Positions 30,901-64,000 of a DNA stretch of 64,000 bases are shown here, in pieces. Under the pieces are notes generated by a model. That model had not been told where the DNA came from and searched no databases. It saw nothing but the letters and a program-made list of their open reading frames with translations. The stretch is from positions 124,001-188,000 of the forward strand of contig JAMAHW010000087.1 of NCBI GenBank assembly GCA_023627715.1. The letters are read 5' to 3'. The position numbers were made by a program, and so were the translations under genes. The DNA is from Periconia sp. R9002. Its lineage: Eukaryota > Ascomycota > Dothideomycetes > Pleosporales > Periconiaceae. The stretch's first letter is position 1. Each line of letters starts with the position of its first letter.

Positions 30901-31701
30901 GCTGGCTTCCAGATTTACGTATTACTCACCAATAGTTCGATACACAAAAACACCTTTGGCATCGTGGCCAGGCGTGTGTCGCGGAAGCAAGGCATCAGAT
31001 CCCGTGGCCAAAACCAAAACATCGTACGATACACTATCGCCTTGGGACGTTTTCACTTCCTTCTTCTCCGTATCGATTTCGGTAACTAACGTATTCAGAT
31101 GGTAACTCAGCGAGCCCTCCGGCATGGATGAGTACTACTGCCGAATTAGCAAGATTCTCAGCTCCGCAAGGTGGACAGAGCAAGCCGCGGTAAACGTACC
31201 CATTCTCTCGGGTTCAAAAACAAATCTTCGACCCTCCGATGCTGGAAAAAACTCGTCAATCCAACGCGATTGTACGCTAGATGTTCCTCCTCGCCGATGA
31301 CTACAATGTCGTATTCTCTCCGCTTAACATCGTACTTCAGTAATTTCTCACTAAGAAGCGATTAGCTGGGAAACTTCGTACTCGTTTTCGCGCTCTCCAC
31401 CACCAAAAGGACAAATAGATACTCACATGAACGCAATGCCCACCATTCCCAACCCCACAACAACAATTCTTTTCCTCTTTCCCTCTGTTGCGTCATTGAT
31501 AGCTTCTTCTTTGCCATTCTGCCGCATTTCTTGTACCTTCTCGGGTAATTCATTCACCCCTGTGTCGCCGTTGTACAGTTTCGCGGTGCTTGCATCTTTC
31601 TCGCCCCAGGTCGGGTTTTGAGGTGGCGAGGCTGGCGGACTGTGGGAAGACATGCTGGAAGGCTCGAGGCCTGGTGTGGGTATGGGTTCCGACTCGGCCA
31701 T
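27924..31701 (-). CDS. niiA: Assimilatory nitrite reductase [NAD(P)H]
   Basis: Six exons are proposed: 31701-31427, 31350-31200, 31134-30930, 30878-30544, 30492-29858 and 29805-27924. They encode 1160 residues. The enzyme reduces nitrite to ammonium with six electrons from NAD(P)H in the cytosol. Domains run in order. An FAD/NAD(P)-binding part starts at [14 protein letters not shown] and includes [14 protein letters not shown]-like [2Fe-2S] region carries Cys541, 543, 576 and 579. The siroheme/[4Fe-4S] core has CVGTTWC (761-767) and GCVREC (801-805). A C-terminal Rieske-type domain has Cys1017-x-His1019 and Cys1043-x2-His1046. Fungal enzymes of this type are 1100-1180 residues. It is divergent from the nitrate reductase gene. 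An upstream in-frame extension (to 31869) is not needed for a cytosolic enzyme. Confidence 0.95.
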
Positions 31702-33442
31702 TTTTTGTTGTAATTTGCGATGCTTTTGGAATCTTCTTTGGAATTTCTGCTTCAGCGACTTGAGGCCAGTGCTTTGTAGTTGAAACGGATTGAATGCAGT
31801 TGATTTTGCATGCGCGGCTATGCTCGTGAGGTGGAAGGTAGTGATCGTTCTAAAATGTGGTCGTAGCACTCTCTATGCGGTACACTCCGGTCCAAATCGA
31901 ACCAATCCACGTGAATTAGTATGTGCAACAATAAGAAGAAGTATACTGTAAGTGAACAAACACCACAGTTTCTTCCAACCACACTTCGAACTTCGAAATG
32001 TAAGCAACACGAAGCCGAAGAGAAGCGTGACGAATGGAGGAAGCAAGATCAAAAGGCAGAAGCTCAGAAAGAAAAGTAGATATCAATTCCTCATTAGTCC
32101 ACCCTACCCACGCGTAGCATTACCGGTACCTAGACGCGCGCAATCGCATGACGAACCACGGGAACCACGTCGCAGTTCAACAACGCCACACACAGATTGC
32201 GAGCCGATCACCTACCTCCTCGCAGATAGATACACAACATCTCATCAAATCGTATTACCTCTGAGACTTATCTCCAGCCTGACATGCGCCCAGCACCCCG
32301 CGGAACAGCCATACGATCAGGAACATGCGATGTGCGAGCGGAGATGCACGACTTCGACATCATACCTCCAAGTCCCTCGCTCATCTTCCAATCAGAGATT
32401 ACGAATTAACGACTCTCGTCTATCCTTAGCAACTAGATAGAACTCCGGGGAGAAGGGGGAAACGAAACGTGTGTTCGCTGGTTGCAAGGGGTTGCGATAA
32501 GAGAGTGGAGTGCGGTTGTGGATCTTCCACCTCCGCGCTAAAGAGGCCGAGAGCGCTAGGCTGGATTGGAGTCTGGTTTTGGTGAGAGTGAGAGATAAGA
32601 ACTTAACGCCATTTTTCTAAAAATCTGTAAGCAAGGAAACGCAGGATGGCGGTTAGAGCGGTCTTCAAAATACTTTGATACGTACATATCAATGTGTACG
32701 TGTGTACTGAAATTCGATTCTGGACGTGATGGAGATTGAAGTGAAGCCATCTGGTTATCTATTACAACCAGGTGTACTGATTTGATCTGTGTAAATACAT
32801 CTTGGTGAAAATTCCTTAAATGAAGAATTTGTAAATACGGATTACGTGGACTGATTCTCCCATTGGAGTTTTGGTCGGCATTCTGGATGGCATTCGGGGA
32901 GTCCGAGGAGATGCCTGGCAAAGGTCACTTCTTGCTCTTCAACGCAAAACTGAAAGTGCTCTGAATTCCTCTCCACGGGGGGATATATTGATGCAATGCA
33001 GACATCTGGACATCAATACATGTATCAGTTGATCATTGATGTGTACGTGTCAATCTATTGACATCATGCTATTGTGAACCAATTGTAGGATCGATGATGA
33101 TGATTGGTCACAGCTGAAGGATAAAAAGAGCCAGAGACCCAAGTTCCATGTTGAAAAATCCATGGACATGGATTGATGGACCAGTTAACGTATTCAACAT
33201 TTGACATCTGGAACCACTTAACATCTGGAGATGTATGCACGTGCGTCAAGGTAAATCACGTGATGATTACCGGACCACGTGCATCGATTGATCGATTGAG
33301 TACATTAAAATTGCACCATATCGACTACAATTAGTGAAACATCTCCCACCAAACCCTGAAAAACGGCTGTAGCAAGTGCATCAAAGCGTGTTCCAGTTCA
33401 ATCGACCGTCAAATTTGTGACCACTGGACTTCAATGTTATTC

Positions 33443-33450
33443 CCGCGGAG
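33443..33450 (-). promoter_or_regulatory. Candidate NirA site
   Basis: The plus strand reads CCGCGGAG, the reverse complement of CTCCGCGG, an exact match to the NirA consensus CTCCGHGG described in Aspergillus. It lies in the shared nitrate-assimilation promoter. Confidence 0.6.
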
Positions 33451-33591
33451 AAGCAAAACCAAAAATAATGTGGGGCATATTCTTGCTCAAACACCTCGAG
33501 CGTTCCATGACTCCTTCACGTCTTACCTATCATGAAAATGGGAGGGATTCAATATCAGTTCATTTGTCGAAGTGAACGCCTTTTTCGACAT

Positions 33592-33599
33592 CTCCGTGG
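33592..33599 (+). promoter_or_regulatory. Candidate NirA site
   Basis: CTCCGTGG is an exact match to CTCCGHGG. It is 142 bp from the other exact site and about 1 kb upstream of the nitrate reductase start codon. Confidence 0.6.
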
Positions 33600-34598
33600 A
33601 CAAACATGTTCTGCATGGACCGACCATGCCATGGCCCACCGCGGCCCGCACTCGGCTTCTACTCATGCACCTTCCGTCGTTCTAGCCTGGAATTACACAT
33701 GGTCGAGACAGGACACGGTGAGGCCTTTTTTCCCCGTCTCGATTGTCACGCTTTTCGAAGAATTGGGGAGACTGAAGCCAAGACTGAAGACTGAGCTTTT
33801 ACAGGAAAGTGCACGCATTGATTACGAAGGAGTATTATTCAACGACCCGTCTCCCGACATTAAAGAAGAAAGGAAGTCCATATACGAGACTTCGAGAAGA
33901 GGTTGGATGTAGTACGACTGAGGCCCTTGCTCCTCAAGCCACGTTCAGGGTGTTTCCCCACTAAAGCGCGCGATGGACCCAATATTGTATACATCGGCCT
34001 CGCTCCAAACCGTCAGGGGTGCTCAAAACATGGCATTCTTTGATGCACGAGCAAGAAATTACTCACGGTATGATGATCTCCGTTGATGTTGCGGCTGGTG
34101 AGCTCGTCTCGATTGGATCGCTTAGCGTCAAAAGATAAGGATGCATATCAGCGCCGTCACACGGGAGTCCGCCTCTCTTGGTTGGGCGATAGAGTACGTT
34201 GACAGTTTCGATGAGCGAATCTCCCCCACAGACGCGAATGGATTGAGGATCGTGGTATTGCGTAAAGCCCCGGGTAAGCGTCTAGATCCGCTGCTGATTT
34301 CGGCATTGGTCAAGGACATCTCCTTTCTCCGCGTCGTGTTTGGTCTGCGGATGATGACATGACGAAGGCCCAGCCGATGTACACTTACCCATTGGGTAGT
34401 CTTCAGTCGATTTGTTTTTATGTTTCACGATGCACGGTCGCTCTGCATAACAGTGGGTACTTTTTGATGCCTTTTACTTTGTGATAGCGAACGTTCTCTG
34501 CTTTGCTACCGTGCATCTCGCTGCGTTGTCTGCACATCTCCTCCATTGTAAACCCGACTTTAGTTTTCGTCATCTTGACCCTGTCAGCACGGCCAATT

Positions 34599-37455
34599 AT
34601 GACATCCGTAGGTTCAGAGACTGCCACAGAGACGGTGACGATAAGCAAGGACGTTTCTCTACCGCCTACACCACCAGAGACCGTCATTGATGGTGACGAC
34701 GAAGGCAAAACCACACACGATCAAAAGGATGAGGATTTTCCTCTCCCACCGCCAACATCAATACCAGACAAGGTCTTGGACATCGACAAAGGGACGCCAG
34801 ATGCACATGTGCCAAGGGACCCTCGATTAATCCGGTTGACGGGCGTACATCCGTTCAATGTCGAAGCCCCGTTGACGGATCTCTTCAACGAAGGCTTTCT
34901 TACGAGTCCCGAGCTGTTTTATGTACGGAATCACGGTGCTGTACCGGTCGTGAAAGATGAAGAGATTCCCGACTGGGAGTTCTCGGTAGAGGGGTACGTC
35001 TTAAGATTCATGATTCAATTCCTTGCGTTGACAATTTGTACAGAATGGTAGCGAACCCGATCAAAATCACGCTGAAGGAACTATTGTCAGATTATGAAAA
35101 TGTCACATATCCCGTGACTCTTGTATGTGCCGGAAACAGGAGAAAAGAGCAGAACGTCGTTCGCAAAACAAAAGGTTTCTCATGGGGGGCAGCTGGCCTG
35201 TCCACTGCATTGTTCACTGGTGTAGTAATGAAAGACATCATAGAAAAGGCAAAACCTCTCAGGAAAGCAAAATACGTTTGCATGGAAGGTGCCGATAAAT
35301 TGGTATGTATTGCGATGCGAGCCGGAGGTTTCGAGCTAATATTCCATAGCCTAATGGTTACTACGGTACTTCTGTAAAGCTCAACTGGGTCATGGATCCA
35401 AACCGCGGTATCATGCTTGCTCATCAGATGAATGGCGAGATGCTTCGACCAGATCATGGACGGCCTCTGCGAGCGGTAATCCCCGGCCAGATCGGCGGAC
35501 GAAGCGTGAAGTGGCTAAAGAAGCTCATTGTCACCGCGGAACCAAGCGATAACTGGTACCATATCTACGACAACAGAGTGCTTCCGTAAGTTCATCCTAC
35601 ATCAATTCACGATCATTGCTTACCTACTTAGTACTATGGTGGATCCCGACGAAGCTACAAGAAACGAGAACTGGTGGAAAGACGACCGCTACGCTATATA
35701 TGACCTCAGCCCTAATTCCGCAACCGCATCCCCTGCGCATGACGAAAAGCTTGACCTCGCCAAAGCAGGAGAATACTACACAGTTCGAGGGTACGCATAC
35801 AGCGGCGGTGGGCGTCGAATAACACGTGTCCAGTTATCATTAGACCAAGGGAAGACCTGGAGGCTCGCCAATATCGACTACGCAGAAGACAAATATCGAG
35901 CTTTCGAAGACCGTCAGCTGTTTAAGGGACGGCTAGATATGGATTGGAGGGAGACAAGTTTCTGCTGGTGTTTCTGGGACTTGAAGATTCTAGTGGAAGA
36001 ACTGAAAGATGCGAAAGATTTGGTCGTGCGAGCAATGGACGAAAGCATGTGTATTCAGCCAAGAGACATGTACTGGTCGGTGCTGGGGATGATGAACAAC
36101 CCATGGTACCGCATCGTCATACACAAAGAGCAAGACGAGCTTCGCTTCGAGCATCCAACACAGCCGGCGCTCATGGCGGGTGGCTGGATGGACAGAGTGA
36201 AGAAGTCTGGAGGTAACTTGACGAACGGGTACTGGGGCGAGAGGATAGAAGGGGAAGACGCGAGCGCCATTGAGACGGAAGACCCGAAGGAAATCAAAAT
36301 GACCAACGACAGCGTCAAGCGTGAGGTTTCTCTCGACGAACTCGAACAACACAACAACCCCGAAACCCCATGGTTCGTGCTCAACGGGGAGGTATACGAC
36401 GGTACAGCCTTCCTGGACGGCCACCCAGGCGGTGCGCAAAGTATCATCTCAGCCGCCGGAATGGACAGCACAGATGAATTCATGGCGATCCGTAAGTCAC
36501 CCTCCCCACCCCTATCCCGCACCCACAAACCAACCTCTAACACCTCACAGACAGCGAAACCGCCAAAGCAATGATGCCAGACTACCACATCGGCACCCTC
36601 TCCGCCTCCTCCCGCCTCGCCCTCGCCACACCCCCATCCCCCACCCACTCCCCCTCCACGGACCCAACCCCAACCTTCCTCAACCCCCGCACCTGGAAAA
36701 AAACCCTCCTCCACTCCCGCACCTCCGTCTCCCCAGACACCCGCATCTTCACCTTCTCCCTCGACCACCCCACCCAAACCCTCGGCCTCCCAACCGGCCA
36801 ACACCTCATGATCCGCCTCAAAGACCCCGTGACCCGCGAATCCATCATCCGCTCCTACACGCCCATCTCCCTCACCTCCAAACAAGGCACCTGCGACGTC
36901 CTCGTCAAAATCTACGCCGACACGGCCGAGCGCGCCGGCGGTAAAATGACGAAAGCGCTCGACGCCATCCCCGTAGGACATTTCGTCGAGATGAAGGGTC
37001 CGATCGGGAAGTTCGAGTACCTCTCCCGCGGAAACTGCAGCATCAACGGTAAACCACGCCGTGTGGCGAGGTTCTACATGATCTGCGGCGGGAGCGGCAT
37101 CACGCCGATTTTTCAGGTCCTCCGCGCTGTGATGCTAGATAAAGACGACCCCACCACATGTACCGTCTTAAACGGCAACCGTTTATTGGAAGATATATTG
37201 TGTAAAGACGAACTCGACGCGTTTGCCAGCGAGAATCAGGACAGGTGTACGATTGTGCATACGCTTACACAGGGGCCGGAGAGTTGGGAGGGGAGGAGGG
37301 GCAGGATCGATAAGGCGTTGCTGGAGGAGTGGTGTGGTAGGGAGGGGGAAGGGGATGCTTTGGTGCTGATATGTGGGCCTGAAGCGTTGGAGGTGGCGGT
37401 TGGGAAGGCGTTGAGGGAGGTGGGGTGGAGGGAGGAGGATGTTTTGTTTTTTTAG
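34599..37455 (+). CDS. niaD: Assimilatory nitrate reductase [NAD(P)H]
   Basis: Five exons, 34599-34993, 35044-35302, 35350-35585, 35632-36491 and 36551-37455, have introns of 46-59 nt and encode 884 residues. The enzyme reduces nitrate to nitrite in the cytosol, feeding the divergent nitrite reductase. The N-terminal molybdopterin domain has the Mo-ligand Cys160 in LVCAGNRRKEQN. A dimerisation domain follows. A cytochrome b5 domain has haem ligands His561 (HPGG) and His584, the latter codon being split by intron 4. The C-terminal FAD/NAD(P) reductase part has RSYTP (684-688), CGGSGITPIFQ (from 762) and CGPEALE. The N-terminal 70 residues are acidic and variable, as in the family. The start ATG at 34599 begins MTSVGSETATETVT. 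The frame extends upstream to 34503 without support. Confidence 0.95.
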
Positions 37456-49017: not shown

Positions 49018-50283
49018 CTAGACTTCTAGTAAACCTTTCCTGTATGTTTTCTCAGGTCGCGGCGCTTTAACATATGCAATCTCTTCTCTCGTCTGCCTGA
49101 AATTCTCACACCCGTAGCGAAACAGCTCGGCGAATGTTCCCTCCTTACAGTCATTCCCGTCCTGATCCTCATCCCAAAGCTCTCCCAACTCCTTGTCGTG
49201 GGTCAACGCCTTTCCCCGAAAGACCTTTTGCATACTCGATCGAGACAGCAGGCGCCAAACCAATCGCTCAGCATCTTTATATTTTCCGTCTGTTTTGTCA
49301 CCATCCACCGGCAATCGGAAGAGATCAAACATCCTCTGACCACAGCCTTTGAATCCTAGCGTTGTTTCCGCACCCCAGGTCTCTTCCAAACCGTCCCAGA
49401 GGAGCACCTTGTTCGCCCAGTAGTCGACACCGCTGAAGCCATCACCCGCGTCTTCGAGCAGGCAGACGCGGTTCCAGCACATGACCTGGGTGACGTACTC
49501 ATCCACGATTGCCGCATCTTGGCTGATATTCCACTGGAACTTCTTTGCTCGCTCGAGGTCCAATGGCTGCTCAGCGAGAATCTTCATCAGTGGGTTTTTC
49601 ATGAGACCAGCAGAGTTGGTGTGGCCTTCCCACAAATGACAGAAAAGTTTGTGCCTGGTCAGAGTCATTGTCAATGGATATTCCATTAATGCTGATTTAC
49701 GGGAGAGCAATTACCATCGATGGATGAATGGGTTTGCCTTTCTGGCAGAGACAAAATGATTACCGATATGAGTGCCATACACCCATGGAGCTGCGATCTC
49801 GTAAGGACTGTTTGGGTCCTCCAGCTTCGCCCAACAAATGCGATCGAAATTTCGAATTACCGGTATGCCCACGTCTAAGAAAATACCGCCATGTGAATAT
49901 AAGCAAGCCCCACGAAGCATATCGGCACTGTGGGGCCCTACGTAAGGGCCATCCATCGTTCCGTGAACGAATGAATCCGGTAAAACCGCCTCAGGAACGT
50001 ATTTCATAAAGTAGTTGTTTGAGTCTGTAGTACTGTCCAGTACACGCACAGTCCAACCATCATAGTCGTGCATGCGGACCCAGGAACAGACATTTCGCTG
50101 GCACCATGGTGGCATGGAATGGATCCCCGCGTGCCAGAAGGCCCAAATGTTCTTCTCCGATGTCACCGGGCGGAAGGTACCGAGATTCTCGAGGATTTGT
50201 TCATCACTTCGTTTGTCTTGAGCCTCGACAAACGAAAGTTGGTCCCGATGTGCGGGAGGGATCTCGAATTTCGGGGTCGACAT
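49018..50283 (-). CDS. Glycosyltransferase, GT32/capsular polysaccharide type
   Basis: Two exons, 50283-49715 and 49654-49018, with a 60-nt intron (49714-49655), encode 401 residues. Sequence signs: NIWAFWHAGIHSMPPWCQRNVCSWVR (from 45), then YVGPHSADMLRGACLYSHGGIFLDVG with the DXD-like LDVG (136-139), then FDRICWAKLEDPNSPYEIA. This is the pattern of the fungal capsular-polysaccharide-synthesis/GT32-like group, which transfers sugars from nucleotide donors. No signal peptide or membrane anchor is visible, so a cytosolic enzyme acting on a small molecule is possible. It lies at the left edge of the P450-rich cluster, with its 5' end facing P450-1. It could glycosylate the cluster product, or simply be a neighbour. 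The second Asp of a canonical DXD is replaced by Gly. Confidence 0.78.
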
Positions 50284-50859
50284 GAGGGAGTTGACGGTTC
50301 AGTATCACGAACCGGCAATACAAATTGAAATGGTTCGAGAGCATCCGCTGCTTATGTAGATAACATTCAACAGTGGTGCTGGATATAGACCAATTCACTG
50401 CATGACTTTAGGGTTTCATGAAACATCCCACTACCCCTCCGTACCATAAAATAAAACACCTGTAAATAACACAACTCACCTACTCTAGTAACAGCTCTCG
50501 ACGTACTTCACTAATAACCCCACTAAGCGTATTTAGGCAGGTATACATTGAGCTGGCCTAAATCCCCCCCAAACCGGCGATATGTATGTAGTTGGGGATG
50601 TGGGTGGGCCTTATAAGCGCTAGCAGGGGGTTACCCCTCAAGACCCATACTGTACTATGTAACTATGCATAGTGCAGAAGACCTCCTGCACGCTGCTCTT
50701 GTCCTCCGCTGCAGTCAGCATCCTACAAAGCAGCATGGATTGGAACAGTGCAGAAAGACTGCCATGCTTGGGCATCAAGTATTCGCATCTTGCTGCCTTC
50801 TACGTCTGCTATTACTCTTGTGTTCTTGAAGTGTAATCTGGCTGTGGTCTCAGGCAATC
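50284..50859. promoter_or_regulatory. Divergent promoter, glycosyltransferase / P450-1
   Basis: A 576-bp region between divergent start codons, suitable for shared control. No recognised site was assigned. Confidence 0.45.
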
Positions 50860-52601
50860 ATGTCGACTGGCACTGCGACTACCCTGGATGTGCTCACCTC
50901 CAACTCCTTTGCAAGGCTTGCAATTTCTCTCACAGTCATCATCGCCGCCTCATACTATGGACGTATCTTGTATGATGCCTTCCTCGGCCCGCTCAGCAAA
51001 TTCCCCGGCCCAAAACTCCGAGCAATGAGCAAAGTCCCTGGACTGTATACCACCATCATCGGCCGCGAAGCCTACGCGCGCGCAAAACTCCACGAAAAAT
51101 ATGGGCCCATTGTCCGTGTCAATCCCACAGAGATATCATTCAACGGCGGCGCCTCCGACTGGGAAGCAATTTACAGCTTTAAGAAGCCTAAGCCTGTTCG
51201 AGATCCCCAATTCTATGCTGTTGGCGTGAATGGGTGTCCGGATGTGGTCACCGCCGACGAAGAAAACCACTCAAGGCAGCGGAAAATTTTGTCTACTGGT
51301 TTTAGCGACCAAGCAATCAAGGGGTACGAACCACTGTTGAAGTCATGGTCCCAGAAGATGATCACGGAGATGTCGAAGCTGGCTAGCAAGGGCGGTAAAG
51401 TTGATATGCTCAAGTATCTTAACTGTACCACGTTCGATATCATGGGTGAGTGCTATACGCTTGAAAACTAAGCCACGTCACAGTCTCATTGTTTTTAGGA
51501 GACCTAGTGTTCGGCGAAGGCTTGGGAATGCTTGAAGACGGCGAGCTCTCGCCGTGGGTGCAAACCATCTTCGCTGGATTCAAAGCCGGGACATTTTGGA
51601 GTTGTGTGATGCAGTACTCGGCTATTACCAACTGGTTGGTCATGAAGCTCCTTTTCAGCAGCAAGAAGGTCCGTCAAATGCAATGGGAAAACTTCCAGTA
51701 TTGTCAGAGTCGCATGGATAAAAGACTTGCTCGCGAACCCGCGCATTCTGATCTGTGGTCGAGGATACTGTCCAAATCCAGTAGCGCTGAAAGGTTGAGT
51801 CGTGATGAATATCATTCGAACGCTGTCACGTTCATGGTAGCTGGTGAGTGGTCTAGACCATGCTTTTTTTTCCTTTACTCGCTGACCATGTAGTACAGGG
51901 ACCGAAACTACTGCTACGGCCCTCAGTGGTTTGATCTACCTTCTCCACCAGCCAGACAACAGGCATGCTCTAGAAAAGCTGAAAGCAGAAGTTCGCGGCA
52001 AGTTTTCCAGCTTTGAAGAAGTCACCTTAGAAAGCCTGGCCCGTTTAGAGTACATGCATGCTATTATCCAGGAAGGGCTCCGGATGTACCCGCCAGTAGG
52101 TTTTCTCAGAGTCTAACAGCAGCTGGGATTAATCAAATGCCATAGGCTCCTAGTCAACTTCCACGACGAACACCTCCCGGAGGCATGGTAGTCAACGGCC
52201 AATTCATACCAGGAGACATTACTATTGACGTACATCCCTTGGCGACATTCTTGTCATCGACACACTTCAAGAACCCGCGGAAATTTCGACCAGAGCGGTG
52301 GCTGGGTGATCCAGAGTATAAAGACGATCACCTGGATGCAGTGGAACCATTCTCGTATGGTCCTCAGAACTGTTTAGGCAAAGTGAGACAACCAACATTT
52401 ACCACCTTTTGAGCATAGAATCTCAGCACTAACAGATACGTTTAGAGTCTTGCCTGGCATGAAATGCGACTGCTCCTGGCAGCTCTGATCCTCAGCTTCG
52501 ATGTTGAACTTGCAGCCGAAGCCAAAGACTGGATCGATCAGAGGATCTACGTGTTGTGGGAGAAGAACCCGCTCATGTGCACACTGAAAACAGTCTCCTA
52601 A
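50860..52601 (+). CDS. Cytochrome P450 (P450-1)
   Basis: Five exons, 50860-51445, 51499-51843, 51899-52095, 52146-52382 and 52446-52601, encode 506 residues. An N-terminal membrane anchor (FARLAISLTVIIAASYYG) precedes a Pro-rich hinge (FPGPKLRA). The I-helix has AGTETT (oxygen activation), the K-helix EGLR supplies the ExxR pair, and FRPERW is present. The haem loop is FSYGPQNCLG with Cys452. It would be an ER-anchored monooxygenase using a P450 reductase. The N-terminal and haem-loop style resembles the CYP65-type enzymes of fungal secondary metabolism, but the subfamily is uncertain. It is convergent with P450-2. All introns have GTGAGT/GTAGGT-type donors and correct phases. Confidence 0.9.
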
Positions 52602-53007
52602 TCTCCCTAGATAGTGAGACCTCACACACGACAGGCTAGCCTACTTTAGCTCAGCCCTATTTAGGTACCTAGACCATGTACCTTTAGAAGATTAGCTTAG
52701 ATTAATACTAGCTTAAGTAGGAACAACAACAACATTTGAAGAAATATCAATATATGTAATAAAAGGATCAGATTGATATCATTTGAGTTATTCAGAGCAG
52801 CAGAAAGTGTAGAATCCAGGATGTACTCTACTATCGAGTCTAAGCGTTACAGTAATATCACGGTTAGAGTCAATCAAACTGACTGTATTAATCTGTCCTG
52901 TAAACTAGTTCAAGCTCACTTTCATACTATTCTAAGTAAGAACGATCAAATACAATTAAGTTCTTCTCGTACTCTGCCCATTCAAGCTCAACCATACGTC
53001 AAGAGTT
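52602..53007. other. Spacer between convergent P450-1 and P450-2
   Basis: About 400 bp of AT-rich 3' sequence. The frame 52773-53036 has no domain. Confidence 0.5.
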
Positions 53008-54724
53008 TTATTCGCGCTTTCGAATACGCATCCTAGCCCTAGGATCGGCAAGTCGGACAACCTCATGCCTAATGTCCTGAGGCGGATCATCACCAGGAAC
53101 GTACCCAAACTCATAATCCAAGAGTAAAATAGCCAACGCAATCTTAATCTCATTTGAAGCGAAGAACCGACCTGGGCACGCATGCGAGCCTTGTTCGATC
53201 TCGTTAGCAATTGCAGTAGAAGTCTAGGTGGGAAGCAACAATACCGAAACCCCAACCCATCTGATCAGCCGAAGGAGTGCTGAATTGGTGCTGGTTTTGC
53301 TCGCCTGGTCGTTCTCGTAGCTTCGCGAAGCGCCGCATGTCGAACGTTTCGGCGTTGGGGAAGTGCGTGGATGAGTGCGCCCAGGAGTTCTCGACCATTA
53401 GTGTGCTGCCTTTGGGAATTACAGTGCCGTCAGAGAGGAGGACGGGGGCTTTGGCGTAGCGTAACATGGAGGCTAGAGAAAAGAAAAAGGTCAGTCTTTG
53501 TTGCATGGGTAGAAAAAGTGCGGGGATTGTTACTAGCGAGTAGGTCCCTCGTCCTCTGGCATTCCCGCATGAAGCTGTCCAGCAATTTCATATCCCCCAG
53601 TGCCTGCTTCGTCCATCCACTCTCGTTGAGAACGCGACGACAATCTTCGCGCAGGGGTTCGATGAGCTCCGGCATGTCGCATAACTGCAGCAGGCACATC
53701 GTCATTGTTTCAGAGCTTAAGTGGATCGCGGCGAGGCTGAAAGAAAGCTGGGCAGCAGCGTAGTCAATTTTCCGCCCTCTTGCACATTCCACCATCCACC
53801 CGATCGCGTCTGCGGTTTTGGACGACCCCTCGCTCTGTATCTGCGCCTTCCGCCGATCAACGACGGGTTGGATGAGGACTTGCGCTCGCTTGTAATACTT
53901 CCTTGCTTGCGTGCAATTCTTGGAAAACCAATGGAAGATAGGTCTAACCAGTCCATGCTGCGAACGTAGCTCGCTGATAGCCTCAAAGCTGCAAGCGGTG
54001 TAGTTCTTGGTGATATCTAACCATTCTTGATTGCGGCAGAGCTCAAGCCCAAGAAAAACACGAGAAGAAAGTCCTGCAACTGGCGATTAGTGGAATTGAG
54101 ACGAGAATGGCGTGAGGAATGGTCCCCGTACGAGCAATGATATCCTGGACGTCCGACTTGATTACACGAGTCTGCCATTCCTTGCTTTCTCCAAAGAGGT
54201 CGTGGTATGTCAATTGCGTCTCTTCGACTAGGCCTGGATCACGGGGTCAGTGATCAGCACATTCAGCCGAAGAGATATGTATGAGGGTCAAGGGTATGTA
54301 CGTTACCTTCGGTAATCAACCCCAAGCTTTGCGTAAGCTTCTTTCTGACAACTTCTTGGATGAAGGTATCATTTTCCAGAATTTCTCGAAAGGGCTGGAG
54401 CCCTGGATACGACGTGAAGCTATCCCTCGCGTGGGCGTCGTTGAAGCTGAGGTCCGGATGGTTCTTAAGTTCATTCGCAAACCGATTCGGGACGACTATT
54501 TTGAAGTTCGTCCCGGTCTGAACCTGGAAGCAACTTTCGAACTTTTCGCCGCCGCGCGCGAGGAGTCCTCGGCCATCCTGTAGGTACTCGTTGCGATCGG
54601 TGGAGAGCACGGGGATTTTGGCGTAGGGCTTCTTGCTGTTTTGGTTGTAGAGGAGGTAGGTCACGAGGACAGTTGCTCCGAGAACGGGGGCGGTCCAACC
54701 GGACAAGAGGTTTGGATATTCCAT
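53008..54724 (-). CDS. Cytochrome P450 (P450-2)
   Basis: Five exons, 54724-54307, 54233-54132, 54073-53534, 53472-53245 and 53189-53008, encode 489 residues. An N-terminal anchor (WTAPVLGATVLVTYLLY) is followed by KIPVLSTDRNEYLQDGRGLLARGGEKF. The C-helix region has IIARLSSRVFLG. The I-helix is SFSLAAIHLSSETM, without the usual AGxxT acid. The ExxR is ECQR, and LLSDGTVIPKG and FDMRRF follow. The haem loop, rebuilt across intron 4, is WGFGSHACPGRFF with Cys434 and Trp in place of the first Phe. The AAIH and SHACPGRFF style is shared with P450-3 and with fungal diterpenoid, gibberellin-type and indole-diterpene P450s. It probably oxidises a terpenoid; the substrate is unknown. Confidence 0.85.
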
Positions 54725-55477
54725 GGTGGTGGTGCGTTGATCATATGAAAATAAGATAGTAAGAAGTAAGAGGGTAGTACCCCGTGCCAAACAGCTTATT
54801 TTACAGCTCAAGGATGGTCACTGGTTCAACGCTAATCAAAATGGGGGCGTTATTATCTAAGAACTTTTCCCATGCAATAGATGGAAACGTATCAAGGATT
54901 TTGCATACTAAATTTAGTGGATACCCAGCGTAATAGCTAGTATATCTTAAGATACTGAGTAAAATTTTTTGTAAACCTTTTAGAAGTTAGAAGGTAGCTT
55001 CTAGTAAATTTAAAAACTATATAAAGCTAGAATAAAGTACCGATAACGTTGCTAATAGTATCTTCTTTAATTACGTGAATACACCGATATAGTGCTCGGC
55101 TAATTTACGATCTTCATGTATGCTCTACGGATGAATTGTTTTAAGATTCTAGGGTTTAAGGCCTACCAATGCATCGTCCTCGCTAGTATAACGACGTCGT
55201 GATTTACCGGAAATGGATAAATCCCTGCAAGGCATGCTACATCCCGCTGATTTGAGCCTAGCAACGATGATTCGTACGAGATGATGCGGTGTAGCGGCGT
55301 AGTGCTGGCACTGCAGGATATATGTAGGTCTGACATCCCACATTCATGTATGATGTGTGCTACTTACCTAGCTACATGTACATACCGATGTATGCCCAGG
55401 CTACATACCCCATCCATGCGTCGCGGCGCTAGGCCGAAAGGAAGATAGCTCCCTCCCCATCCTTTAATATGTACATA
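54725..55477. other. AT-rich block inside the cluster
   Basis: The part at about 54830-55140 is AT-rich, with many stop triplets in all frames, and looks like mutated transposon remains. It separates P450-2 from the UbiA-like gene; the latter's 3' side is on the right. No gene was seen. Confidence 0.5.
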
Positions 55478-56398
55478 CTATGGATTTGCCAACCATACTG
55501 GCATCAATCCAACGAGGGTACCTAAACCCCATGAAAACATGGCAGAACGCCGCTTACGTAGCGCAAGAATGCTGAACGCTCCCCAGAAAACGGTCGATCG
55601 AACGACGGATAGTACGGCACTTCCACCACCGAATAGCGTGAGTGACAAATCGCCCATCAGTGTGCTCCCACCTAAGAAGATCAAGGTGCGACGAATACCA
55701 AATGCAGTAGCCAAAGTCGTAACGTTGTTTTGTTTGTCTTCTTGGAAATCTCGCACATCACAAATCGACTCCCACAGGAAGTCGTAAAGGACTGTGTACG
55801 TCAAGACTCGAAAGTGCCCCGCGCCTGAAGCATCCTCCGGATCAAGCATGATTCCGCGAAGGTACAAGACGACTGCGGTCACGTCCATGAGCCCGATGCA
55901 TGTTGCCCCGAAGAGGGACTTGAAAGGGCCGAGGAAATACTTGAGCTTGACTGTGGAGAATTTCCCGGTTTTGAGCGAGTACACGGGAATCAGTGGCATC
56001 GCGTGCACGATGGCCAGCAAGGGGACACCGAGCAGTCGAAGAAGTGCTAAGAGTCCACAATGCATTGTGCCATAAATGGCAAGAGCAATGAAGGGGCTTG
56101 CAAAGACGACAATAGTCCTGAGCCAAGTTTTCCTCGTCTGCCGGGGGAGGTCGGCGGCCTTATCCATGACTGCATCAGAAAGTCAGCTTCGATTCTGGAC
56201 CGTGTATGATGACGACTCACTGTCGATCAGCACGTGAAGAGCGAAAAGTAGCACAAGTATTGGAGTGTCGAGCGGCTGTTTATCTCCAAGCGTCACTCGC
56301 GACGCGCTCACTGCAGGCGGGATGTGCATTGCTCCATTGATAACAGGAAGCAGGAAACTTGCTCCTACAATTGACCGTGTAAGCTCTGGTTGAGACAT
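55478..56398 (-). CDS. UbiA-superfamily prenyltransferase or terpene cyclase
   Basis: Two exons, 56398-56221 and 56169-55478, with a 51-nt intron, encode 289 residues in seven to nine membrane helices. Two aspartate-rich motifs are visible. The first is D59-I-M-D62-K-A-A-D66, whose second codon spans the splice site. The second is D197-V-R-D200-F-Q-E-D204, followed by [13 protein letters not shown]. These bind Mg2+-prenyl diphosphate in the UbiA fold. Family members transfer prenyl groups to aromatic acceptors, and some fungal ones are terpene cyclases. The chain is short and the first motif differs from the common NDxxDxxxD, so I cannot choose between transferase and cyclase. It is divergent from the toroid gene across 665 bp, which suggests co-regulation. 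Confidence 0.8.
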
Positions 56399-56400
56399 AC

Positions 56401-56426
56401 TGTTGGCCGGATGTCGATGGTTACAG
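56401..56426 (+). repeat. Direct repeat copy 1 (promoter)
   Basis: This begins TGTTGGCCGGATGTCGATGG and lies directly upstream of the minus-strand UbiA-like start codon. Its partner is at 56555-56580. Confidence 0.65.
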
Positions 56427-56554
56427 ACAGTAGTTCTTCCGAATGTAAAGAATGACGAAGTTGGTCTGAAGGATTTCTTTGGAGCAAGATATGGTTACTA
56501 ATGAAAAAGATGAGGAGGATCGTAGGACCGATCGCGTGATCGATTAAGATATGT

Positions 56555-56580
56555 TGTTGACCGGATGTAGACGGTAACAG
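56555..56580 (+). repeat. Direct repeat copy 2 (promoter)
   Basis: This begins TGTTGACCGGATGTAGACGG, 154 bp from copy 1 and in the same orientation. The two differ at four of 26 positions. Confidence 0.65.
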
Positions 56581-57063
56581 CTAGAAACTGTTGGGTTCTA
56601 AAAGATGACAAATTAATTTAAAGGACTCTTTTTAGTATGGAGATTCTGTACCTACTAATAAGCAAAAAGGCGATAAGCAGGACCATTTAGTGCCTTGGGG
56701 TCACATGCTGAAGCAAGGCCCCACTTCTGCAAGGCAGGATACAGGCAGATCTCAGATGGATGCCGTATTTACTGGGTTTTTTTGGATTTTCATGCAACGC
56801 CGAACATGTAAGACTGCACTGTCACTGCAGGATCAGCTTGGCCCCACCGTTAGCAGCCACTAGCGATCCTTGGTCTTGTTTGGCAACGACGCTTCCGTTT
56901 TACCATGGCCACGACGGATATCACTCAGCTTGCAGGATGTTGAAGGGCGTGTGTGTACGGTGGCTTTTAGGTACCTACTTGCGAGGGGAATTTAATTCGC
57001 CATCACCACGAGCAACTACAATCTTCAAGTCACCATTTAGTCACCATTCAATCAAATTTCATC

Positions 57064-58207
57064 ATGTCCAATCTCGCAACCGTAGACAATGCAATTCGTA
57101 AGGCCGAGGAATGGCTCGAGTCTAACAAGAAGACTTTTCTTTCTGAGACGGAGAATGGCATCGACTTCAAAGATAACTTCGCTGATCTGCTGATACTGGA
57201 GCTCTCCAACAGATGGTGAGTAATAAAAGCTCCCGGTCTTAATATTCGAGACCGTTTCAATAACAAATGGATCTCAGGGACTATGTAGATCTTCGAATTC
57301 CAGAACGACGATGGCATTACTTCGCTGGTGAGTGACATCCTCTCAACAACTCACCACATAGACACTGACCTTGTGTGATAGTCAAACCGGTCATTGTACC
57401 AGCAGACTACCCCGAGGATAACGACACCAACGCCGTCGCCTTTTCCATCGTAAAGCCGACCGAAGCCCGAGCCAAGGTATTCCTTGACGAAATCCTAGCG
57501 TGCAAGAACGCGGATGGTATCGTACAAGTATTCCACCCCCGTAAAACCTATTCTACAATGTACTTGCACTCACGCACCATCAGGTCCACCTCGACCCCAA
57601 CCGGCCAAGAATGGCGCCCGAAGTTAGCGCCAACATCCTCTCGCTCTTCTACCTCTACGGCCGCGGCCACGAAGTCCAAGAGTCTCTCGGCTACCTAGAG
57701 AAAACAATGGCGCTCGACGAGTACCAAGAGTCACGGTACTACTTCCTCCCAGAGCCACTCTTCTTCTACACCTGGCGGCTCCTGTGCATCGCCTCGGGAT
57801 GCGCCATCGGAACCATCAACACCCAGCGCCTGCCCAAGGAGCTACACACGCTGAAAGACCACCTGATCAGACGAGTAAGCGCTCGCGTAGGTGCCAAAAC
57901 CGACAACGCGTTGTCTCCCGCAATACGTATCTTGATCAGTCAGTCGCTGGGGATTGAGTACGATGCTGATGTGCAGGTTTTGCTCAACTTGCAAGAAGAT
58001 GATGGGAATTTCGGGAAGGCATGGTATGTGAGGTATGGGTCGAATGGGATTAGGATACATCATCGAGCGTTTGCTGTTACTATGGCTGTTGTGGCGCTGA
58101 CGAAAGCGAAACAGCATATGGTTGCGACGAAGAAGACGGGGGTGAGCCTTACGGGTCTTAGCTGGGTTTGGGACAGGGCGTCGACTGCGCTTTCTATCTT
58201 GAAGTAG
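57064..58207 (+). CDS. Alpha/alpha-toroid terpene-cyclase-like protein
   Basis: Four exons, 57064-57215, 57278-57327, 57382-57527 and 57584-58207, encode 323 residues. Helical repeats and the segment [17 protein letters not shown] (QxxDG at 253-257) resemble the QW-type repeats of squalene/terpene cyclases and related toroids. Other conserved-looking blocks are [41 protein letters not shown]-like [13 protein letters not shown], and [24 protein letters not shown]. No DxDD acid motif of class II cyclases and no DDxxD of class I enzymes is seen. The length is that of a single toroid domain. It might be a partner subunit of the divergent UbiA-like enzyme, or a stand-alone cyclase. Splice phases are 2, 1 and 0, all with clean donors. 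Confidence 0.75.
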
Positions 58208-58443
58208 GAGGGAATAGCTTCTCAATGTACTTTGTTTAGGCTGAAGCTGGCATGGATTAATCTAGATTTTGATTTTGCTACGTTGATCATTTTTCGTGTT
58301 TTCGCCATTGTGATGAAGAGTCAATCATCCACCTACTCGTCGAAAAGGGTACATCTTCAATCTGAACAAGGGAATCACGTGATTAAAAACGCTTCTCAAT
58401 TCAAAACTATCTACCAGGCTCAGTCCACTTTCCACCTCTACCC

Positions 58444-59463
58444 CTACTCTATCCAGCGCATGAACATATCCCTCGATAATTCTTCAGAGTACCCAGCATA
58501 ACTAGCCTCACCCTTCATATACGTCTTCGCCTCACCCGCTCCATACGACCACGAAAGAATATGAATCTTATTCGTGTCACGCGAAGGGTGGTCCGCGAAA
58601 AACTTCCTCATCCGCTCGTTCTTCAGCCCCGGAAAGTTCTGCGCGTCCTTGGTGGGCGCGTAGAAAGCTACGCGGGGGATGTGGCCTGTCTCGGGGATGA
58701 TTGTGACGCCAAAGGTTTGCTTGGGGTGTGTGTTCTCGCTGATGACTTGGATATCTTCTTCGGACGGAGGGGCTGAGCCTGCCAGACCGACGTACTTGGC
58801 GGCACGTTCAGCGGTCAAGCCTCCGTCGAGCAGGAAGTAAACGTTGATACTGCGGTTGGCGTAGTCCACGGCCGCGAAGTTGACGTGCTCGAGACCTGCG
58901 GCCTGGAGATCGGACACGCGGGATACCGCGCGGTCTGGGAGGCCGTGGTTAGACAGGATGTCCTTGATGGGTTGCAGACGACGGAAGTAGATCCAGTTCT
59001 TTGCGATTCCGCGGCTGGGGTCAAAGTCGCACCATTGCTCAGCGTCCTCTTGGGCACTCCAGGATCGAACTACTTTGGCGAGTTGGTCGTCGGGAGAGAT
59101 CCAGCCGGCATTGGTTAAGATGGCGGTGGTGTCGATCCGTTTGCCGTGGAAGGCGAGGCGGAAATTGACCACGTCGGCGGGTTTGCTCGTGCAGCGGAAC
59201 CAGACGTAGGAGTCGTCGAGGTACGGGTCGAATGCTTCGAGGATTTGCTGGGTTACCTTGCTTGAGTAGGGCGCATCGAGCGAGTGGCAGAGCGTTGAGA
59301 GCTCTGATTGAAAGGTAGAGCGGTCGAATGTTTCGACGGCGGCGACAGCCATGTCTTGGAGGATTTTTGGGGGTAGCTCACGTGTGATAGGTGAAATAAC
59401 GTTTTTGTAGAGGTATTGAGAGGACTTGGTGCACAATTGAGAAGTTGAGGGTTGCAAATGCAC
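58444..59463 (-). CDS. ABBA aromatic prenyltransferase, CloQ/NphB (Orf2) type
   Basis: This single-exon gene encodes 339 residues, close to the usual 300-330. The family is soluble, binds prenyl diphosphates inside a ten-strand beta barrel, and prenylates phenols, naphthalenes or phenazines without a DDxxD motif. Recognisable parts are VVNFRLAFHGKRIDTTAIL, WCDFDPSRGIAKNWIYFRRLQPIKDIL, HVNFAAVDYANRSINVYFLL, TFGVTIIPETGHIPRVAFYAP, and IHILSWSYGAGEAKTYMKGEASY, the last typical of the barrel's end strands. This type is best known from Streptomyces, with a few fungal members such as those described from Aspergillus terreus and Botrytis/Sclerotinia. It is not a DMATS indole prenyltransferase. It is convergent with the toroid gene, 236 bp apart. 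Confidence 0.85.
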   Translation of the reverse strand: MHLQPSTSQLCTKSSQYLYKNVISPITRELPPKILQDMAVAAVETFDRSTFQSELSTLCHSLDAPYSSKVTQQILEAFDPYLDDSYVWFRCTSKPADVVNFRLAFHGKRIDTTAILTNAGWISPDDQLAKVVRSWSAQEDAEQWCDFDPSRGIAKNWIYFRRLQPIKDILSNHGLPDRAVSRVSDLQAAGLEHVNFAAVDYANRSINVYFLLDGGLTAERAAKYVGLAGSAPPSEEDIQVISENTHPKQTFGVTIIPETGHIPRVAFYAPTKDAQNFPGLKNERMRKFFADHPSRDTNKIHILSWSYGAGEAKTYMKGEASYAGYSEELSRDMFMRWIE

Positions 59464-60712
59464 CTAGACCTAACCTCCCGAGAGATCAAATATTTAGGAA
59501 TCCCTAAGCCGTTTTCTCACCATACACATCAATGATGTCCTTGTTTACTTACCCTACCCCTATATGTACTTTCCTAACCCTTCCCTACTAAATCCTGCGT
59601 ATTTTTCTTAACTCAACTATGTATTTAACAACTAATTCCTATAAAACTTAATAACTTTCTATATTATTTCACATATAGTTAACAATCTAATCCACAACGT
59701 TTTTTAATATAAAGATATCCTATTCAGGCCATATACCCCCACCTCTCCTACTACCCATAAATCCTAACATCCACCCCTCCCCCTCTCCCCCTCTCCCCCT
59801 CTTGCATAATCTTTTAGCGTCAATGTACATTACCAGCTGACAAGTCCTCCTCCCTGCTCACCCCAGCAAAACCATCAGCTCAGCTACTAGGTACATACAT
59901 GATGCGGGGGGTTCCTTAGCCCAAAATCCACCCCCGTACAGTACCCACAACAAACAACAAAACGTCACGTCATCAATGTGGGGTTCAATCCCGACCCCAA
60001 CAATTTTTTCTTTTCAGGCGACCAGCGCGGGGTTGTCGCGGGGTTTCTTATCGGAATGTATCCAAAGTTGAAAAGGAAATAAAAAAGCCAAGAAATAGTG
60101 CTGATGGTGTTGCGTCTAGGCAAACCACCGGGGTAAAGGTCGTTACGATTGATATACATGCAGCTAGAGCACAAGGAGTAATGTCGGCCCGCCCGCTGCG
60201 CTGCGGGATACCTAAATGCATGTAGGTTGGTTTTTTTTAAGGCGTTACACGGGGGTTTGGCAAGGGATATGTGTAGGATGGTTTAGTTGGTGTAAGTTGG
60301 TTAGGTTAGTGTAAGAAGGAAATGCCATTACCCCGAGCTGAGTTAGGTAGCTACAACGGGTGCTACGCTACGCTATGCTGAGGCCAGCGCTGAGCTACGC
60401 TGTTGGGAAAATGCTGCACACTACATACGTAAGTATGTTACTGGGGACTTGGGTATAGGTCATGCGCTGTCGAAAGGGTGTACGGTACGTACGTTTCGCA
60501 CGAAAGACTGGGGACGTTATTCTTGGGAGAGCACTTGAGGTTATCGATTTGCGTTTGTTGTTACGATACGAGACTCACGCATGAGTTTTGCGCTACTCAA
60601 TGTACTTTGTTTGAACGAACAACTAAATCTTTTTGTCGCCTTGAAAAATTCCTATACGTTCACAACAACAAAATCAACCAATTAACTTCTTCCCCCGCGA
60701 GGAAAAAAAACA
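59464..60712. other. AT-rich intergenic region within the cluster
   Basis: About 1.25 kb. The left part (59520-59720) is AT-rich. A CCCCCT-type minisatellite lies near 59774-59801. Frames 59965-60174 and 60478-61011 have no domain; the latter overlaps the next gene's 5' end in another frame. The last 150 bp are the leader of the methyltransferase gene. Confidence 0.5.
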
Positions 60713-61489
60713 ATGGGGAACAAGCATCTCACCTCCCTCGCCCCCAACCTCTCTCTCTACACAAACAGCCTCGAAGAAACCCGCTTCTTCTACCAGGAAA
60801 TCTTCCTCGACCACGCCTACGACATCGCCCCCCTACGCCCGGACGCCTTCATCGTCGACGCCGGGGCCAACGTGGGGCTATTCACTCTCTACATGAAGAA
60901 GAAGTACCCAAGTGCACGCATCATCGCGTTCGAGCCGGCGCCGGAGACGTTCAAGATGCTGAAGGCGAACGTGGAGGAACTGCACGGACTGACGGGCGTG
61001 GAGTTACATGACGTTGCGTTGGGCGCGGAGGAGGCTACGAAGACGTTTACGTTTTACCCGACGGTGCCGGGGAACTCGACGCTCGTGCCTGAGGAGAAGG
61101 AGATGGTGCGGGAGGTGTTTCATGGGTTGAGTGGGGACTGGGGGGATTCGGCGGAGAAGATGTATGGGAGGAAGCAGGAGGTGCCGGTAAGGGTGTGTCG
61201 GTTGTCGCGGTTTTTAGAGGGGAGGGAGGGCGTGGGGAGGATTGATATGCTCAAGGTTGATGTTGAGGGTGTGGAGTTGGAGGTTTTGAGGAGTTTGGAG
61301 GAGAAGCATTGGAGGTTGGTTGATAATGTTGTGGTGGAGATATGTGATTTGAGGGAGGGACGGTTGGAGGCGTTGGAAGGGTTGTTGAGGGGGAAGGGGT
61401 TTAAGACGAGGACGGAGAGTCCAGAGTGGAGTCCGAGGGAGGGGAAGATGTATATGGTTGTTGGGCAGCGCGAGAGTGGTAAGGCTTAG
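60713..61489 (+). CDS. FkbM-family SAM methyltransferase
   Basis: This single-exon gene encodes 258 residues. The SAM-binding Rossmann motif is FIVDAGANVGLFTLYM (about 46-62), followed by acidic post-I IIAFEPAP (about 69-76). The FkbM hallmark IDMLKVDVEGVELEVLRSL is about 177-195, then VVVEICD. FkbM enzymes O-methylate hydroxyls of secondary metabolites or sugars. There is no signal peptide. Within the cluster it would be a tailoring enzyme. Codon usage shifts from C-ending at the 5' end to G/T-rich downstream, a composition switch seen in other genes here. The start is the first ATG after an A-rich leader. Confidence 0.88.
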   Translation: MGNKHLTSLAPNLSLYTNSLEETRFFYQEIFLDHAYDIAPLRPDAFIVDAGANVGLFTLYMKKKYPSARIIAFEPAPETFKMLKANVEELHGLTGVELHDVALGAEEATKTFTFYPTVPGNSTLVPEEKEMVREVFHGLSGDWGDSAEKMYGRKQEVPVRVCRLSRFLEGREGVGRIDMLKVDVEGVELEVLRSLEEKHWRLVDNVVVEICDLREGRLEALEGLLRGKGFKTRTESPEWSPREGKMYMVVGQRESGKA

Positions 61490-61779
61490 GTTGGGAGATT
61501 GGGAAAGTTTAGAGGGGGTTTAGAGATTAAGACTTAGCATTCTATAGAGCTTTCGCGAATAAACATCATCGATATTGGGACGATCCGCCTAGCTACGCAT
61601 AATTCACCTATCGTGTCTTCCTTCCTTTTTGTTCGTTGCTTCATCATGAATAGATTTTGAAAGAAAATATACCTAGGTCTACCTCTTCCTCTACTTTCCC
61701 TTCCTTACTCCAACTACCTCTCTGTCCCCAGCCTCCTTTCCCTACTCCCTTTGCTATCCCCTTACAAGCTGCACACCGT

Positions 61780-63532
61780 CTACTTCTTCCGACGTATGAG
61801 AATCTTCTTGCTATACGCCGGCCCAATCCCATCAGCCGAAACCAAATTCTCAGGACGTCCCTCACCATCAAGGAGCTTCATTTCATAATTCAACAACAGA
61901 TACGACAAAATAACCTTAATCTCATTATTCAGGAAGAAGCGGCCAGGGCAAGCATGAGGACCATGGCCAAAGGCAATGAGATCATTCTGGCCAATTCCCG
62001 TCTCAATGAAGGTGTACTTGCCGCCCGAGGCGCTGTCGCCGCCGCGCAGCTTGAGGAAGCGATTCCCGTCGAAGTCTTGCGGGTTGCCCCAGCGCTGCGG
62101 GTCCATGGCCATGAAGTATGCCGGGACCGCGAAGCAGCAGCCCTTGGGGAGCACGGTGCCGTCGTGTAAGGTGATGTCCTTCATCACCTTGCGCTCGAAG
62201 GTGAGGAGGCCTAAGGGGTGGATGCGCTGCGACTCCTTCATGAAGCTGTCTAGCTTGCGCAGCTTGGGCATGCTGGACTTGGTCAAGTAGCCGTCCTTCT
62301 CCTGGGATAAGACGTCGGTGATTTCGTCGCGGATGGGTTCGATGTACTCGGGCCGCGCTAGCATGTCGAAGATGATGTGCGTGCTCAGCATGGTGGTGTT
62401 GTGGATGGCGGCTGTCGATACCACCAACTGCGTGTGCGCGTGGACGGTTAGATCTTTCTTCTTCTCTGGAGGCACGCTGTTAATATGCCATGTAGTCAGA
62501 TTGTTGGGCGCGTTGCCCTCGGCGATGAGCCGCAGCCGCTCGGGTACGACGTCTGCTAGAATCTTCTTCATTCCGTCCAGCGAGCGCTTGATGCCTCGTA
62601 CTTCCTCAACCCAGAACTGGGCAATTGGACGTTGCCAGGCTGGATAGCGTGAGATGGCCTCGATCGCCTTGAAAGCGACGAAGGTGAAATCAATGATGTT
62701 CTGGAGGTAGGCAGGGTTGCGGTTGAGTTCGGAGCCGGCGAAGACGCGACCAGAGACGAGAGCGACGGCGCGCGTGAGGACGTCGCCGAGGGCAATCTCC
62801 TTCCAGTCTGGAGGCGGTATTAGCGAACGAAATCTCTCGTAAATTCTTCGTATATATCTGTCTACAAGTGCGCCTTCAACTTACCATCGCATTCGCCCAG
62901 GCTGCTGTTGAAGGCGTACTCGGTTTCTTCGAAAATCTCCTTCATCATACCGCCGATGTTTCGCGTCAGGTCGTGCTTGACGCAGTGGAGCAGGTGTTTA
63001 GGGTCGTGTCCGATAGAAGTTGGCGTCAAACGGGTGTATCTTGTAAAGAATCGCTAGGGGGTTGCGTCAATCCAATTTCATGAAAGTCCCAATTTTGGAT
63101 CCATAGACAGGTAGCGGGAACTGCCTTACATCCGTGTTCTTTGCCTCAAGCGAGACGTACTCCTCCGGGAGGTAGCACAGCTCACTGATGAAGCGTTCAG
63201 GCAGGACCACGACGGTGCCATGCCGCGCCTTGAGCTGCCAGAGCTGGCCGCGGTACTGTACAGCAAATGGTCAGCCAAAGCTAGGAAAATTTAATCCCAT
63301 CGACTCGGTTTCCAACCTTCTCGCAGTTGACCGAAAGCGCATCTTGCAAATTTCCAAGCTCAACCTGCCCTTTCTTGACCACGGAGATGTCGACGAGCGG
63401 GATATTGGGGAGTATAGGCGGGGTGTGTTCGCGGGGCAGAGCGAGAAAGTACGCAACTACCAGCACCAGGGCGCCTATGACGACGGCACTCTGCGTCTGG
63501 TGCTGCGCCGCGTAAGTATAAATCTGGTCCAT
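61780..63532 (-). CDS. Cytochrome P450 (P450-3)
   Basis: Four exons, 63532-63317, 63255-63130, 63053-62885 and 62807-61780, encode 512 residues. The N-terminal anchor is SAVVIGALVLVVAYFLALP. Family blocks are YRGQLWQLKARHGTVVVLPERFISELCYLPEEYVS, LVSGRVFAGSELNRNPAYL, the I-helix TQLVVSTAAIHNTTMLST, the ExxR ESQR, TLHDGTVLPKG, and the haem loop FGHGPHACPGRFF with Cys457. The layout is that of the fungal CYP68-like terpenoid oxidases, including gibberellin-pathway P450s, and it resembles P450-2. Similar positions of several introns suggest the two are paralogues. The first intron's donor is GTTGGA, which is unusual; the others are GTAAGG and GTAAGT. Confidence 0.88.
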
Positions 63533-64000
63533 TGCTATATAATAGCTAAAGAAAACTTGGACAATGTAGATTAAATTTGTGAGTAACTACAATCTACGAG
63601 AACTCCCCCTGCTATAAGTACTTAGCCGAGTAGCCCAGAGTAGAGAGCTCTCGTACGATAAAATAACCGGCTTATATTTTTCTTTACTGCCTTACTTGCG
63701 TATTACCTTGCAGAGGAGTGACATGCCGGGTAGCTAGTGTACTAGGCGTTATTTATAATTAAGATTAAGTCGATCGAGGGTGCAGAGCCTCGAATTTATA
63801 CGACTTCTTAATCCTGCTGCTTATATGTAGCATCGTGATTTGACACCCAACATATCAACTAGAGAAGATATCCCAAAACCTTATCCCTACATACTTTCCG
63901 TGTTTTGAGTGAATGTCTCCACCCGTGACCCGCCTCACGTGGCCCACTGTATAAATACATTAGGTATATACCAGACTACACCTTCTATTCCATCCCAAAC
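63533..64000. other. Window end with MITE relic
   Basis: This holds the promoter side of P450-3 and an AT-rich stretch with a relic of the MITE left end at 63711-63760. No gene start was recognised before the window ends. Confidence 0.45.
63711..63760 (+). mobile_element. Decayed left end of the same MITE family
   Basis: This begins CAGAGGAGTGACATGCCGGG, differing from the intact terminus at 44592 by one G-to-A and one C-to-T change. It continues with TAGCTAGTGTACTAGGCGTTAT, which matches the intact interior after a gap of about 14 bp (GTAGCTAGTATACCAGGCG..). The right terminus was not found within the window, and the left flank reads TG rather than TA. Confidence 0.7.

Follow-up and report, generated by a model that had tools for sequence, protein, structure and literature searches.

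How could eight fungal genes, among which no standard backbone gene had been recognised, make a terpenoid product? This question is raised by a set of genes in Periconia sp. R9002, located at 49018-63532 of the window, by which we mean the whole 64,000-nt stretch of contig C87 (bases 124001-188000) that was analysed; searches of the fungus's own genome covered a 42.9-Mb assembly (267 contigs). A reading made from the letters alone, here called the sequence-only reading, had described eight adjacent genes forming a pathway-like set. Both points are upheld, the adjacency by spliced models that we built by hand, in which 16 of 16 introns run from GT to AG and measure 50-77 bases, and by Pfam matches for several of the products. 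We interpret the set, with a probability of about 0.6, as a cluster of specialised metabolism whose product would be a prenylated terpene hybrid (meroterpenoid) and which is clipped by the contig end. The likely core consists of a UbiA-superfamily membrane protein (UbiA), a free-standing class II terpene cyclase (TCbeta, the "toroid") and a CloQ-type prenyltransferase (ABBA), the five remaining genes being likely tailoring genes of the locus. We infer a joint function for all eight.

The key to the question is the toroid. Residues 10-292 of TCbeta are homologous to the terpene cyclase (TC) domain of the fungal drimane synthase AstC (PDB 22ty; phmmer, E 4.9e-35), and the protein is also homologous to the class II cyclase domain of the bacterial drimenol synthase AsDMS. 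This homology, together with Foldseek comparison, confirms the alpha6-alpha6 barrel (toroid) fold that had been proposed. The DxDT acid/base motif is present as D80-N-D82-T83 and is found in 11 of 20 TCbeta homologues, the remaining nine being sequences that do not cover it. The Asn and Tyr responsible for orienting the catalytic Asp are retained (N133 and Y169), as are the main phosphate-binding Arg, relative to both AstC and AsDMS, and four of the five mapped AsDMS phosphate contacts. The residue mapping took in 21 AstC residues and left out AsDMS R513 and S514; judged in this way, residues proven essential elsewhere are mostly retained in TCbeta. The view that the locus has no backbone enzyme, reached by looking for DDxxD, was thus rejected, since by AstC homology the toroid is itself the predicted scaffold-forming cyclase. 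Assignment of the toroid as a protein prenyltransferase beta subunit or an oxidosqualene cyclase was also rejected, because drimenol synthases rank far higher in Foldseek and in a VIA comparison covering just the chains pre-ranked by Foldseek.

TCbeta matched nothing in Pfam up to E 1; 15 of its 20 homologues bear the precomputed label PF28380.1, which had no corresponding match in the Pfam searched here. NCBIfam searches with the core proteins gave no score near any cut-off. No HAD domain is fused to TCbeta, as the 323-aa model aligns solely with the TC domain of AstC, and a Pfam search of one upstream open reading frame (ORF) and three relatives, run without an AstC HAD positive control, returned zero matches to any family. 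A pattern search of genome contigs for close bacterial relatives of UbiA and TCbeta, with a pattern that reaches close relatives alone, gave 14 and 36 matches, none of them confirmed. Separately, a second, divergent AstC-like TC sequence lies at C39:163799-164574 (locus L016, ~4700-5900, minus strand) and is 31-32% identical in two pieces. It has one TAG within a matched piece and, by eye, a degenerate-looking DxDT stretch and no obvious HAD part adjoining; it is possibly a dead or changed paralogue.

The ABBA protein scores 206.3 bits against Pfam PTase_Orf2 (cut-off 22), its nearest solved structure is CloQ (2xm5, E 2.9e-42), and its gene is the sole PTase_Orf2 match found in its own genome. 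Seventeen of its 19 database homologues are 61-85% identical to it and two are 37-38% identical (37% for a Bisporella homologue). Enzymes of the CloQ/NphB group are described as prenylating aromatics, with no need for a divalent metal except in NphB (PMC10344970), and since this group acts on aromatic substrates, an aromatic acceptor is our guess.

The assignment of the third core protein to the UbiA superfamily is suggested by a structural model but falls short by Pfam score. With an AlphaFold model of the relative P0021, of low confidence (predicted local distance difference test, pLDDT, 55), the 12 highest-ranking Foldseek matches all belong to the UbiA family, with E <= 0.001 for 3 of these chains; 6m31 and 7bpu are chains of this family. 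The Pfam UbiA score of the window protein is 21.7 bits, under the cut-off of 34.2, and the protein has no match among PDB sequences. A PF01040 search of its own genome gave 16 matches elsewhere and missed the window gene, so we regard the protein as strongly divergent; 11 of its 16 relatives match Pfam UbiA at E<=0.01. It carries two Asp motifs, IDxxDKxxD (residues 58-66) and DVRDFQED (197-204). The second, as D(V/I)RDxxED, is present in 16/16 homologues, while DKxxDL is found in 12/16 and the leading VLID in 5/16, the others beginning after these points. Prenyltransferases are described as having NDxxDxxxD and DxxxD, and UbiA-type terpene synthases NxxxG/AxxxD and QDxxDxxxD (PMC9835599). Relative to the former pair, the window protein keeps every Asp, with the Asn replaced by Ile, and its motif I appears to lean towards prenyltransferase. 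The closest relative, P0021 from Viridothelium virens, is 85% identical across the whole length of the window protein and is labelled 'Prenyltransferase vviA' in the database, a label that may likewise speak for a prenyltransferase; we found no paper on the vvi label or on this species. Given this relative, part of the system may already have been studied, and the existence of a named relative limits its novelty.

Are the three core genes linked elsewhere? We made one protein database search per core protein, which retrieved 20 TC, 16 UbiA and 19 ABBA homologues as 90% clusters, in which members and partners may be hidden. Consecutive locus tags join all three genes in Zasmidium cellare ATCC 36951 (M409DRAFT_29807, ABBA; 29808, TC; 29809, UbiA) and in Trypethelium subeluteriae (Q9165_006770, UbiA; 006771, TC; 006772, ABBA), and join TC with ABBA in a second Z. 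cellare assembly (PRZ48_012120, ABBA; 012121, TC) and in Periconia macrospinosa (DM02DRAFT_569562, TC; 569563, ABBA). The linkage that the sequence-only reading had proposed to check is therefore found in other fungi and gives no ground for refuting a shared pathway. A more indirect sign, for which same-sized contigs were counted as one, places TC with UbiA on 7 contigs, TC with ABBA on 8 and all three on 3, with TC and UbiA of Periconia digitata on same-sized contigs (5,846,744); by this count 12/20 TC, 7/16 UbiA and 8/19 ABBA homologues are partnered. Identity to the window proteins in the named Dothideomycetes is 76-83% for TC, 68-85% for UbiA and 65-85% for ABBA. Within this class, Zasmidium belongs to Mycosphaerellales, Periconia to Pleosporales, and Viridothelium and Trypethelium, both lichen fungi, to Trypetheliales. 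We conclude that the locus represents a genuine cluster type, one that is conserved and has been too little described.

In the route that we think most likely, UbiA and/or ABBA attach a drimane-type unit to an acceptor that is small and probably aromatic, with oxidation by P450s to follow. As predicted from conserved residues, TCbeta would use Asp82 as acid and Asp80 as base, protonating a farnesyl chain at its terminal double bond and closing it into a bicyclic skeleton of the drimane type; with no HAD phosphatase domain attached, the diphosphate would stay on. The membrane UbiA enzyme would couple a prenyl or cyclised prenyl group with the small acceptor, and the soluble ABBA enzyme could prenylate the aromatic part of the same molecule. 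Oxidation by the P450s and methylation by the FkbM enzyme may follow, and the glycosyltransferase may attach a sugar. A tentative version of this route keeps the drimane-type diphosphate of the HAD-free cyclase phosphorylated and passes it to UbiA for transfer, ABBA prenylating the same acceptor. Such a transfer would be easiest with a C8-C9 double bond, since the C11 diphosphate is then allylic; this bond position is that of AstC's product, and the TCbeta residues do not decide it. If true, cyclisation before transfer would reverse the sequence of events that is usual for fungal polyketide-terpenoids, described as prenylation, epoxidation and then cyclisation via a Pyr4-type enzyme (PMC10882540).

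Several observations weigh against a meroterpenoid cluster of this kind. In TCbeta, 9/21 mapped AstC residues are changed, among them T264, now V, and the two of the AstC diphosphate 'gate' (Q265 to P, K451 to N), which is lost. AsDMS Y373 is His, the AsDMS Y373A mutant being dead, and the HAD cap, which contacts farnesyl diphosphate (FPP) in AstC, is missing. UbiA motif I lacks its leading Asn, and no YxxxK, named as a further motif (PMC12790560), can be made out by eye. No gene for making the acceptor is seen, hence the aromatic acceptor as a guess, and no k-mers common to six upstream regions were found, the P450 C region being clipped by the window end. Unpartnered homologues amount to 8/20 TC, 9/16 UbiA and 11/19 ABBA; the eight TC homologues lie on contigs of <2.5 kb (six), 21.8 kb (Trypethelium eluteriae) and 70.5 kb. 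Within the 90%-cluster lists, V. virens yielded a UbiA match only, P. macrospinosa and Z. cellare PRZ48 yielded none for UbiA, and P. digitata none for ABBA.

With the gate lost, Y373 changed and no cap present, there is room for an order resembling that of MstE, in which UbiA would farnesylate the acceptor and TCbeta would then cyclise the attached chain, an order that we consider less likely than the favoured one. It is unlikely that UbiA instead resembles Fma-TC and EriG in being a class I terpene cyclase, acting on FPP, geranylgeranyl diphosphate (GGPP) or the cyclised diphosphate of TCbeta. Its motif II, (A/C/S)DxxDxxxD, does resemble the QDxxDxxxD of fungal UbiA-type terpene synthases (PMC9835599), with three Asp retained and the Gln replaced, and the prenyltransferase Asn is absent from motif I; however, motif I should then read NxxxG/AxxxD, which is not matched, the window protein having no Asn and, at the G/A position, an Asp as in NDxxDxxxD prenyltransferases. 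More improbable is a locus of two adjoining pathways, one in which TCbeta and some P450s make a drimane sesquiterpenoid and another in which an unrelated aromatic is prenylated by UbiA and ABBA. AstC itself is described as working in astellolide sesquiterpenoid biosynthesis (PMC5024094), but consecutive tags for three genes in two fungi and for two genes in two further assemblies would be unexpected if the functions were unrelated.

The meroterpenoid cluster, as we favour it, would include the remaining genes listed below. The three P450s (Pfam E 4e-66, 3e-37 and 6e-36; B and C 29% identical) and the FkbM methyltransferase (62 bits) bear out their earlier labels, as does ABBA. The GT32-type label of the glycosyltransferase gives way to Caps_synth (35.5 bits, cut-off 24.5), Gly_transf_sug scoring 19.9 (cut-off 23); its DxD is degenerate, with a GGIFLDVG stretch that has no second Asp.

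Features of the Periconia sp. R9002 locus, in window coordinates
Feature	Coordinates	Strand	Details
Glycosyltransferase-like gene, Caps_synth family	49018..50283	-	401 aa; exons 50283-49715, 49654-49018
Cytochrome P450 A	50860..52601	+	5 exons, 506 aa, haem motif FSYGPQNCLG
Cytochrome P450 B	53008..54724	-	5 exons, 489 aa, haem motif FGSHACPGR
Divergent UbiA-superfamily membrane protein	55478..56398	-	289 aa, 2 exons: 56398-56221, 56169-55478
Intergenic stretch between divergent UbiA and TCbeta gene starts	56399..57063	.	single listed + strand ORF >=100 aa, without Pfam match
Free-standing class II terpene cyclase, TCbeta domain, AstC/AsDMS type	57064..58207	+	323 aa; DNDT at residues 80-83
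TCbeta exons	57064-57215, 57278-57327, 57382-57527, 57584-58207	+	hand-made model
CloQ-type ABBA (PT-barrel) aromatic prenyltransferase	58444..59352	-	302 aa, 1 exon
FkbM-type methyltransferase	60713..61489	+	258 aa, 1 exon
Cytochrome P450 C	61780..63532	-	4 exons, 512 aa, haem motif FGHGPHACPG

To the left of the glycosyltransferase gene lie genes for F-box, PDDEXK_12 and TatD proteins, which places the most likely start of the cluster at 49 kb or further right; whether the glycosyltransferase gene at this edge is a member is uncertain. On the right, the contig terminates at 188124, 124 bases beyond the window end, and probably cuts off the cluster. The earlier statement that no polyketide synthase (PKS), non-ribosomal peptide synthetase (NRPS) or dimethylallyltryptophan synthase (DMATS) is visible applies to the eight genes, among which none is evident, and because of the contig end it cannot be extended to the whole cluster. 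The last 200 bases of the contig matched no other contig of the assembly. By eye, 63700-64000 and the bases beyond the window resemble a TATA-/CT-rich promoter and 5' leader of a further plus-strand gene, and one adjacent gene is probably absent from the contig. Two look-alike stretches, GGATGTCGATGGTTACAGAC and GGATGTAGACGGTAACAGCT, were seen by eye at 56390-56640, upstream of the UbiA gene, which suggests a local duplication within the upstream region shared with TCbeta. CGG-N0..11-CCG palindromes number two in total, both upstream of FkbM, with the P450 C region again clipped.

Elsewhere in the window, 24059-37455 holds nitrite reductase- and nitrate reductase-like genes (Pfam domains), with a lipoxygenase on the left side, apparently a nitrate assimilation region beside the cluster. 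At 14328-17708, one open reading frame (1126 aa, unsplit) has an NPHP3_N domain, ankyrin repeats, a NACHT match only under cut-off and a short SSDYG repeat at its end; its predicted product is an NLR-like fungal protein.

We found no paper on the combination of UbiA, ABBA and TCbeta. The three-gene unit is kept in several Dothideomycetes and would be missed by searches for a DDxxD synthase, PKS or NRPS, so that it offers a concrete handle for mining a group of fungal meroterpenoids. The locus shows that the DxDT cyclase domain known from drimane synthases can also be a stand-alone protein, so that the fate of the diphosphate without a HAD partner can be tested.

Relative to known systems, TCbeta shares its fold, DxDT pair, supporting Asn/Tyr and main phosphate-binding Arg with the HAD-like drimane synthases AstC, AacA, DrtB and AncC and with AsDMS, the direct comparison having been made with AstC and AsDMS alone. 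In contrast to the HAD-TCbeta enzymes, it has no HAD domain, has lost the AstC gate and is adjoined by UbiA and ABBA genes. MstE of Scytonema, ~12% identical to TCbeta in alignment, is likewise a monodomain class II cyclase; it was crystallised with prenylated dihydroxybenzoates, and its substrate is a prenylated benzoate. The ABBA protein resembles CloQ/NphB-type enzymes in its Pfam family and CloQ match, and is likened by name only to the fungal PtfAt/PtfBf group described in PMC3227686. The UbiA protein has two Asp-rich motifs in common with UbiA prenyltransferases and with Fma-TC, EriG and Tps1A, may share their UbiA fold, to judge from a low-confidence model, and differs from these prenyltransferases and terpene synthases in its missing motif I Asn, its lack of a PDB sequence match and its Pfam score below cut-off.
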